From Streptomyces peucetius (lineage in GTDB: Bacteria; Actinomycetota; Actinomycetes; Streptomycetales; Streptomycetaceae): DNA of 64,000 bases. Position 1 is the first letter of the stretch, and each line of letters starts with the position of its first letter. Location: contig NZ_CP107567.1 of the NCBI RefSeq assembly GCF_025854275.1, forward strand, positions 7,688,001 to 7,752,000, written 5' to 3'. The notes beneath the pieces are model-generated. The model worked only from the letters and a program-made list of their open reading frames with translations. It searched no databases and was not told the origin of the DNA. Position numbers and translations under genes: made by a program. Below are positions 34,294 through 36,440 of this stretch, one piece after another.

Positions 34294-34593
34294 CAGTGCA
34301 CCGATCCTCAGGTACGGGAGAAACAGGGTCCTTCGATCAACCCTTGCCCTGGCGCCGTGGATCGAAGCGACAGCGGCGCGCGCCCCACCCGTTCGCCGTG
34401 ATGCCCCGAATCCACCGGTTTGGAGTGTCGCCTGGATCACGTTGGCGGATTGTGTGAAACCCGCCGGGCCGGTGGTGCGTCTGTCTGGACGGCGCCGGAA
34501 GGCAGTGGAAACCCAAGGAAGGCAGCGTCACGGCGCTGCCGACCGGGGAACTTCCATGGGGGAAGCCATGGAACAACAGCAGGCACATCATCA

Positions 34594-34605
34594 CAGTACG
34601 TACTG
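34594..34605. promoter_or_regulatory. 12-bp palindrome upstream of the graspetide genes
   Basis: CAGTACGTACTG is a perfect palindrome 76 bases before the precursor ATG in an AT-richer patch. It is a plausible operator; no regulator gene is adjacent. Confidence 0.4.
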
Positions 34606-34669
34606 AAACCATTACCTCGTACGCACGTATCTGTCACACGAGGAGCCCGGGCAGGCGCGCACGGGCAGG

Positions 34670-34674
34670 GGAGG
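34670..34674 (+). promoter_or_regulatory. Strong RBS of the precursor peptide
   Basis: GGAGG within AGGGGAGGAAGAGG lies seven bases before the ATG at 34682. It fits high expression of a short peptide. Confidence 0.6.
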
Positions 34675-34681
34675 AAGAGGA

Positions 34682-34873
34682 ATGAAACCGTTCGCGTGGA
34701 ACTTCGCACGCCCAGCCGAGCCGGCCGCGGGTGTCACCCCCTATTCGTACGACGCCGCCCTGCAGTTGAACGTCCTGGCCGACGGGCGACCCGCCGTCAT
34801 GGACCGGGGCCTGCTCGCCCTGGCCGGCACGACGACGTCGAAGGCCGGTTCCGCGACCCACTTCGACGACTGA
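34682..34873 (+). CDS. tgmA: Graspetide precursor (ATP-grasp-modified RiPP)
   Basis: A 63-residue precursor peptide. The leader matches the actinobacterial ATP-grasp RiPP pattern: PFAWNFARPAEPA (residues 3-15), then YDAALQLNVLADGRP (23-37) and AVMDRG. The C-terminal core is rich in hydroxyl residues and ends in acids: Thr50, Thr51, Thr52, Ser53, Lys54, Ser57, Thr59, then His60, Phe61, Asp62 and Asp63. The neighbouring ligase would join Thr/Ser (ester) or Lys (amide) side chains to the Asp side chains, making a macrocycle. The gene starts after a strong RBS and is 13 bases before the ligase gene. The mature product and its role are unknown. Confidence 0.88.
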   Translation: MKPFAWNFARPAEPAAGVTPYSYDAALQLNVLADGRPAVMDRGLLALAGTTTSKAGSATHFDD

Positions 34874-34886
34874 CCGGCTGTGCGAC

Positions 34887-35816
34887 GTGACGGTGCTGGT
34901 GCTGACGTGCAAGGCGGATGTCACTGCCGACATGGTGGTGGCCGAGCTGCACGAACAGGGCGTTCCGCTGGTGCGGTTCGACCCGGGCGACCTTCCCGGC
35001 GGAGCGGCGCTGTCCGTCGAGTACGTACGCGGCGAGTTCCGCGGCTACCTGTCGAGCGGCGGCCGGGTGGCGAGCATGCAGGGCCTGCGGTCGGTCTGGA
35101 TCCGCAGGCCCAGTGAGCCGGTGGCGCACGCGCCCGAACCGTCCGACTGGCTGAGCGTCGAGAGTGCGCACGCCCTGTACGGGATGCTCGACTGCACCCG
35201 GGCGCGGTGGATGAACCACCCGAGCGCCGCGGCCAAGGCCCGGCGCAAGCCGTGGCAGATGCGCATCGCGTACCTCAGTGGCTTCCCGGTGCCCGCCACG
35301 CTCCTGACCACCCATCCGGCGATGGCCCGTCAGTTCGCCGAGCAGTACCGGCAGGTTGTCGTGAAGTCGGTGTCCGGCAAGTCCCCGGGCGAACCGCCGA
35401 TGGCGCTGCCGACCACACTCGTACCACCGGACGCCGACTTCTCGGGCGTGGCCGCGGCCCCCACGCTGCTCCAGCGTTACATCGCCAAGCGCGCCGACAT
35501 CCGGCTCACCAGCGTGGGCGACCGGCACTTCGCGGCCCGCAAGGCTGCGGAACCGGGACAGGTCGACGGGCGTTACGGCGACACCGGTCACGAGTGGCAG
35601 CCCGTGGAGGTGCCGGCCCAGATCGCCAGGGCCGTCGAGACCTACAAGAAGCACGCCGAACTCGCCTACGGCGCCTTCGACTTCGCCGAGGACTCCACCG
35701 GCACATGGTGGTTCCTCGAATGCAACCAGGGCGGGCAGTTCGGTTTCGTGGAGTTGGAGACCGGGCTTCCCATCGCGCGGACCGTGGCTTCCTGGCTTGG
35801 CGCGGAAGTGTCGTGA
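34887..35816 (+). CDS. tgmB: ATP-grasp peptide maturase (graspetide ligase)
   Basis: A 309-residue ATP-grasp enzyme of the SAV_5884/MvdD type. The N-terminal pre-ATP-grasp region ends in SVWIRRPSEP. Next come NHPSAAAKARRKPWQMRIAY, then VVVKSVSGKS (ATP-binding Lys), LLQRYIAKRADIRLTSVGDR and the Mg/ATP motif FDFAEDSTGTWWFLECNQGG near residue 270, followed by QFGFVELETGLPIA. The enzyme phosphorylates an Asp/Glu side chain and joins it to Thr/Ser or Lys of the core. The precursor gene is immediately upstream. The usual third gene, an O-methyltransferase of the PCMT type, is absent: the next genes are a repeat region and a convergent DUF1992 gene. Confidence 0.92.
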   Translation: MTVLVLTCKADVTADMVVAELHEQGVPLVRFDPGDLPGGAALSVEYVRGEFRGYLSSGGRVASMQGLRSVWIRRPSEPVAHAPEPSDWLSVESAHALYGMLDCTRARWMNHPSAAAKARRKPWQMRIAYLSGFPVPATLLTTHPAMARQFAEQYRQVVVKSVSGKSPGEPPMALPTTLVPPDADFSGVAAAPTLLQRYIAKRADIRLTSVGDRHFAARKAAEPGQVDGRYGDTGHEWQPVEVPAQIARAVETYKKHAELAYGAFDFAEDSTGTWWFLECNQGGQFGFVELETGLPIARTVASWLGAEVS

Positions 35817-35883
35817 CGGGCCGTCGTGGTCGGTGAGGGTCCGTGACCGTGGCAGGTCCCGCCGCAGTGTGCCGGGGGCCGCG

Positions 35884-35950
35884 ACCGGGCACGTACGGCC
35901 GGCGCGTGTCGGGGGCCCGCCACCGGGCACGTACGGCCGTCGCGTGTCGG
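35884..35950. repeat. Two 29-bp direct repeats, period 38
   Basis: Copies at 35884-35912 and 35922-35950 differ at one base; both contain ACCGGGCACGTACGGCCG. They occupy the space just after the ATP-grasp gene. Weaker partial copies follow to about 36000. Confidence 0.65.
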
Positions 35951-36041
35951 TGAGCGCCCGCGATCCCGGCGCATGCGGCCGCCGTGCGCCACAGTGAGGG
36001 CTGCCGCGTGACGTTGGAGGGCCTTGGCCGCGCCGCGTGCC

Positions 36042-36440
36042 TCAGGCGCGGCCGCGCCGCCAGTCCTCGACGACCGTGTTCACGTCGTACGGCGTCAGCC
36101 CCAGCGGCGGCCCGGGCGGCGGGCGCCGGACCGCTGCTGCGATCTTCTCGTTGATCTCCCCGACGATGCGCCGCACCGCGGTCTCCGACGGAGCCCGTGC
36201 GGCCTTCTCGAGCGCGTCCTCCGCCTCCTTGCGCAGCGCGAGCGTCGGAGGGAGGAAGCCGAGCCCTTCGCGGTGCATCTTCCCCTTGATCCACCACATC
36301 TCGTCGTACGTGTCGCCCGACGAGGACAGCGGACGGCCGAAGCCGGGCAGATCCTTGAACTCGCCGCGCTCGGTGGCCTCGCGGATCTGCTTGTCGACCC
36401 AGGATTCGAAGCTGACACCCGGCGGTTTGCGTTCGGTCAT
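36042..36440 (-). CDS. DUF1992 (DnaJ homologue C28-like) protein
   Basis: A 132-residue DUF1992 protein. The family core is FESWVDKQIREATERGEFKD followed by LPGFGRPLSS (residues 10-40). YDEMWWIKGKMHREGLGFLPP follows, then a helical tail with Pro-rich PPPGPPLGLTPYDV. The domain is found in bacterial and mitochondrial proteins of unknown activity and lacks a J-domain. The ATG at 36440 begins nine residues before the core. It ends 225 bases from the ATP-grasp stop and is convergent with it. Confidence 0.85.
   Translation of the reverse strand: MTERKPPGVSFESWVDKQIREATERGEFKDLPGFGRPLSSSGDTYDEMWWIKGKMHREGLGFLPPTLALRKEAEDALEKAARAPSETAVRRIVGEINEKIAAAVRRPPPGPPLGLTPYDVNTVVEDWRRGRA

Follow-up and report, generated by a model that had tools for sequence, protein, structure and literature searches.

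The 64,000-nucleotide stretch of DNA analyzed here (hereafter the window) covers positions 7,688,001–7,752,000 of the 8,050,611-base, single-contig genome of Streptomyces peucetius. On its forward strand, a gene for a 63-residue peptide of the Strep_pep family of graspetide precursors (34682–34873; ATG start at 34682, TGA stop at 34873) is followed after 13 bases (34874–34886) by a gene for a 309-residue ATP-grasp graspetide synthetase (34887–35816; GTG start at 34887, TGA stop at 35816). The precursor matches PF14404 (Strep_pep) over residues 1–63 of 63 with 132.3 bits (gathering score 25; E-value 6.4e-39) and TIGR04186 with 54 bits (cut-off 25), while the ligase scores 361.9 bits against TIGR04187 (GRASP_SAV_5884; curated cut-off 350) and is the only match to that model in the whole genome. 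The peptide comprises a leader (residues 1–48; 34682–34825), whose boundary is placed where conservation changes and which carries the conserved motif Q-L-N-V-L-x-D-G-R-x-A, and the core GTTTSKAGSATHFDD (residues 49–63; 34826–34870), which ends in HFDD and contains potential Ser, Thr and Lys donors together with Asp acceptors. A preliminary description of this DNA had recognized a graspetide precursor of 63 residues ending in HFDD with an ATP-grasp ligase 13 bases on, and both the assignment and the coordinates are correct. It was equally accurate downstream, where it placed 225 bases with repeats and then a convergent DUF1992 gene: 35817–36041 contains two 38-nt tandem copies, 92% identical, at 35874–35949, and the convergent gene at 36042–36440 matches PF09350 (DnaJC28_CD), which we take to be DUF1992. 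Scans of 34300–36100 for sigma-70 promoters and intrinsic terminators returned nothing; by reading of the sequence, a promoter-like element, TGAAAC-N16-CGTATC, was placed on the forward strand at 34604–34631.

The cassette is an ordinary two-gene graspetide locus of a family widespread in Streptomyces. Of 150 Streptomyces genomes sampled, 76 have a PF14404 match above the cut-off (G085 through a frame-broken copy), as does none of 14 control genomes; an order-wide sample that overlaps the first one gives 120 of 245 genomes, with matches in two of eight genera. Of the 92 PF14404 places in the 150 genomes, 87 were used and five set aside, each of the five a short partial match in a long open reading frame; in all 87 the synthetase adjoins the precursor. 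The arrangement that had been presented as a minimal cassette is thus no novelty but the normal form, and about half of the sampled Streptomyces have the family. Ten aligned precursors used as a protein query returned 599 proteins, and a search for the core pattern with Lys at position 58 at least 119 stretches, of which, among the matches listed, 118 are from Streptomyces and one is from Streptantibioticus. Strep_pep is named in PMC8939145 among families going back to a 2009 study. Some genomes (for example G104, G007, G061 and G049) have a second Strep_pep copy elsewhere, often with Ala58 or Gln58 and in some cases with a GTG start. Three of the five places set aside (L129, L130 and L131) are short stretches of kinase-like, apparently PASTA-type, proteins that score near the PF14404 cut-off, which looks like chance similarity.

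Comparison of precursor homologues, which the preliminary description had proposed as a check, reveals a sharp difference between leader and core. Among 83 unique precursor genes from the profile-found loci, pN/pS is 0.471 for the leader (residues 2–48) and 0.061 for the core (residues 51–63) at similar pS (0.514 and 0.459, respectively). Ten core positions (T51, S53, A55, G56, S57, T59, H60, F61, D62 and D63) show no variation across all 87 profile-found loci, a count that includes one locus, L128, whose core is out of frame with its leader and that was obtained with a profile which itself spans the core. These 87 loci are the fair test of invariance: a wider set of 253 loci was selected for THFDD, so the constancy of Asp-Asp and THF in that set is by construction. 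L128 itself is either a broken copy or a sequencing error. Thr50 and Thr52 vary among precursors and are therefore unlikely to be required as ring donors, although the preliminary description had listed them among the candidates. Position 58 is occupied by Lys, Ala or Gln. A literature search for the core sequences gave no peptide paper as judged by title, and a search for TgmA-type names gave, by title and among the matches listed, none on RiPPs.

To place the synthetase, we built a quick, midpoint-rooted IQ-TREE phylogeny of 162 sequences, comprising 91 from 220 Strep_pep loci and all 71 other TIGR04187 synthetases, with long-branch warnings inside the latter group. A single branch with an SH-aLRT support of 100 splits the 91 Strep_pep synthetases, the window ligase among them, from the 71 others. 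A solved structure lies in the same clade: chain A of PDB 9BOU (‘MvdD-like pre-ATP grasp domain-containing protein’) scores 404.7 bits against the window ligase at 60.7% identity and is 99.4% identical to the Strep_pep synthetase of locus L135, while the best row from the other clade reaches 40.3%. The L135 precursor carries the family core, and the rows nearest 9BOU have its Thr54/Lys58 form. Our literature search found no paper naming 9BOU.

The acidic residues of the window core are Asp62 and Asp63 only, and across 163 unique precursor rows Asp, Glu and Asn are all absent from positions 49–61. The number of side-chain rings is thereby limited to two, as the preliminary description had stated. 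Graspetides carry side-chain ester or amide rings, with 18 Da lost per ring, and the window core has Lys54 and Ala58 in place of the frequent Thr54/Lys58 pair. The Lys54/Ala58 variant, which is new here, occurs in three of the 87 profile-found loci and in five of the 163 unique rows of the wider set, in which Lys58 is over-represented because one of its searches used the Lys58 core form as the pattern. It is common close by: searching with the window precursor yields 17 proteins (identity 62–100%, its own entry included), 13 with Lys54 and four with Thr54. An amide via Lys54, which had been offered as an alternative to the esters, thus lacks support as a general trait of Strep_pep cores, though the residue prevails among the nearest proteins. 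Lys58 is absent in 22 of the 87 loci and any core Lys in 19 (both counts include the frame-broken L128), yet Asp-Asp is kept in all. A residue as changeable as Lys58, set beside two constant terminal Asp residues, speaks against a Lys amide as a family-wide trait, and the retention of both Asp residues without Lys58 argues against an amide, though donor switching is possible.

A specific form of this idea is that Lys54 takes over an amide-donor role of Lys58, which would make the window peptide a lactam-containing variant with a shifted ring. Lys54 never appears without Ala58 (5 of 5 unique precursors of the wider set and 13 of 13 among the nearest proteins), and the Lys54/Ala58 rows form one four-row group in the synthetase tree (support 75), as if the Lys had moved by four residues. 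We nonetheless regard it as unlikely, as the 19 profile-found loci devoid of core Lys (one being the frame-broken L128) retain Thr51, Ser53, Ser57, Thr59 and both Asp residues, and as Thr54 accompanies Ala58 in L308, a member of the same five-row tree group (support 98), and appears in the four Thr54 proteins noted above. The Thr54/Lys58 label itself requires at least four changes on the tree, three of them forced by well-supported branches. We infer from the conservation pattern that the rings would be two esters formed from invariant hydroxyls.

No methyltransferase adjoins the window cassette, and to this extent the preliminary description was right; its further statement that the usual enzyme is missing is misleading. 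A PIMT-like methyltransferase gene is present in 0 of 220 Strep_pep loci and in 66 of 71 other TIGR04187 loci, the exceptions among the latter being L021, L031, L034, L276 and L296. The 220 loci represent 200 unique precursor genes from strains that are not independent and records that overlap, with at least 1,100 bases visible downstream of the ligase in 174 of them and at least 500 in 200. The comparison set of 71 is made up of 69 loci among the matches listed, mostly best scores first, plus two from S. prunicolor. Counted separately, the profile-found loci gave 0 of 87 and control TIGR04187 loci 27 of 30; 30 of these 87 were first viewed to about 550 bases past the ligase, of which 29 were then widened and the thirtieth is the window. 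Given these counts and the separate synthetase clade, the methyltransferase is not missing from the window cassette: the Strep_pep branch does not carry one. The core, with positions 49–61 free of Asp, Glu and Asn, also offers such an enzyme no obvious substrate.

The locus could alternatively be a reduced group 13 (graspimiditide) cassette, descended through loss of the third gene from an ancestral locus that also encoded a PIMT-like methyltransferase. According to PMC13001092 and PMC12291112, group 13 graspetides, the graspimiditides, of which fuscimiditide is an example, combine a PIMT-like methyltransferase with an Asp in the loop. Fuscimiditide-type loci share with the window pair an ATP-grasp ligase making Thr-Asp esters, as would be expected in the window product, but differ from it in having the methyltransferase in the cluster and the loop Asp. 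The common membership of the broad TIGR04187 family and the methyltransferase in 66 of its 71 other loci are what such a descent would predict; the fully supported branch that parts the two sets of synthetases, and the lack of the gene from every Strep_pep locus, make it very improbable. Recent loss is ruled out by the tree; a loss at the base of the clade could still have taken place, since the tree is midpoint-rooted and came from a quick search.

A methyltransferase acting in trans was sought across the genome, as the preliminary description had advised for a TgmC-type enzyme: TIGR04188 gives eight matches, only two above 100 bits (248.6 and 189.9), both PIMT-like, under the cut-off of 380 and remote from the cassette. 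That one of these two proteins converts the product to an aspartimide or isoaspartate is the least probable reading, even though one of them (L351) has an ABC-transporter-like gene about 850 bases away, as the sole core acids would be needed for the rings, the other protein (L350) by our reading sits beside globin-, FHA- and VWA-like genes, and two of three S. prunicolor ligases have their own methyltransferase adjacent. L351 (189.9 bits; G000:C1:7409000-7424000) possibly belongs to another RiPP locus.

A probable known relative is prunipeptin. The title of a 2021 paper by Unno and Kodani, cited in PMC13097080, describes it as a bicyclic peptide from Streptomyces prunicolor, and PMC11888242 calls it a graspetide (MIBiG BGC0002725) with a cluster family of 3,589 members, 99.53% of them from Streptomyces, and low diversity; this distribution fits that of Strep_pep found here. 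In S. prunicolor NBRC 13075 we found three TIGR04187 synthetases, two of which (L337 and L339) have an adjoining methyltransferase, while the third belongs to a two-gene Strep_pep pair (L338/L242) homologous to the window pair in both precursor and synthetase. Its precursor has 63 residues and the same leader motif, its core is GTTTSTAGSKTHFDD, identical to that of the window except for two residues, and the synthetases share 64% identity. The prunipeptin cluster reportedly has just two genes. By elimination, together with this gene number, the S. prunicolor pair is probably pruAB. The window locus is most likely prunipeptin-type, judged from sequence comparison, because the Strep_pep pair is the only S. 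prunicolor TIGR04187 locus found to lack a methyltransferase. Prunipeptin may use its Lys58 in an amide; if it does, the Ala58 core of the window must differ from it.

Upstream of the family, a conserved element with the consensus GTAAGGAAACCAATCACCCGTTCGATTCGTATAAGTC is present in 138 of 192 unique regions (at most four mismatches in a 16-base anchor). When 20 genomes chosen among those with main-clade loci were searched, the main-clade element appeared once per genome in 19 and was absent from one (G128), with no control hits, and each genomic match lies 29–99 bases upstream of the precursor start; the exact two-box version gives one match in 16 of the 20 genomes and none in four. This form was not seen in sister-clade loci among the matches listed. 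Relatives L041, L076, L143, L094, L213 and L254 retain GA[AG]AC...CGTA[CT], some 55 bases ahead of the precursor start, and L144 is without the first box. The TGAAAC-N16-CGTATC element of the window looks related to the main-clade form, and its letters, with up to two mismatches, match the 8.05-Mb genome once, at the cassette (backwards control, 0). Spacing and letters, read against the ECF box consensus, suggest a putative ECF-type promoter. The conserved promoter-like element at the cassette is new here. A perfect palindrome at 34594–34605, CAGTACGTACTG, was considered as an operator and rejected, as GTACGTAC occurs in only nine of 192 upstream regions. After ligase and precursor, the next commonest neighbor family is found in 26 of 89 oriented loci, and no widely linked transporter or protease emerged from this neighbor survey, whose counts are lower bounds because the simple gene finder missed even precursors (of the 89 loci, it recovered the ligase in 83 but the precursor in just 55).

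Taken together, we consider it likely that the window pair belongs to the Strep_pep family of Streptomyces as a two-gene graspetide locus of the prunipeptin type. By analogy with other graspetides, the synthetase would bind the conserved leader and use ATP to activate both terminal Asp residues (Asp62 and Asp63) at their side-chain carboxylates, which would then form esters with hydroxyl groups of invariant residues from the set Thr51, Ser53, Ser57 and Thr59, yielding a peptide bicyclic at its C terminus and 36 Da below the precursor. No aspartimide step would follow, and host proteins encoded elsewhere would remove the leader and carry out any export.

For the family, the methyltransferase puzzle dissolves, its absence being a property of the Strep_pep branch, and the features worth testing are instead the shifted Lys and the near-invariant core, together with the dedicated promoter-like element. 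As a sign of selection, the near-frozen core would point to one conserved target within the genus, which is not what a diversifying antibiotic would show. Since the leader drifts but the 13-residue core is near-unchanged across about half of the species sampled, it is possible, though we hold this tentatively, that the Strep_pep graspetide is a conserved Streptomyces signal or regulator, not a weapon, switched on from a dedicated once-per-genome promoter element. If the assignment is true, the shift of the core Lys from position 58 to 54 in the small clade of the window would be a natural test of whether Lys takes part in a ring. The natural Lys58, Ala58, Gln58 and Lys54 variants, together with the 9BOU structure from this branch, ease the design of experiments on ring assignment and function.
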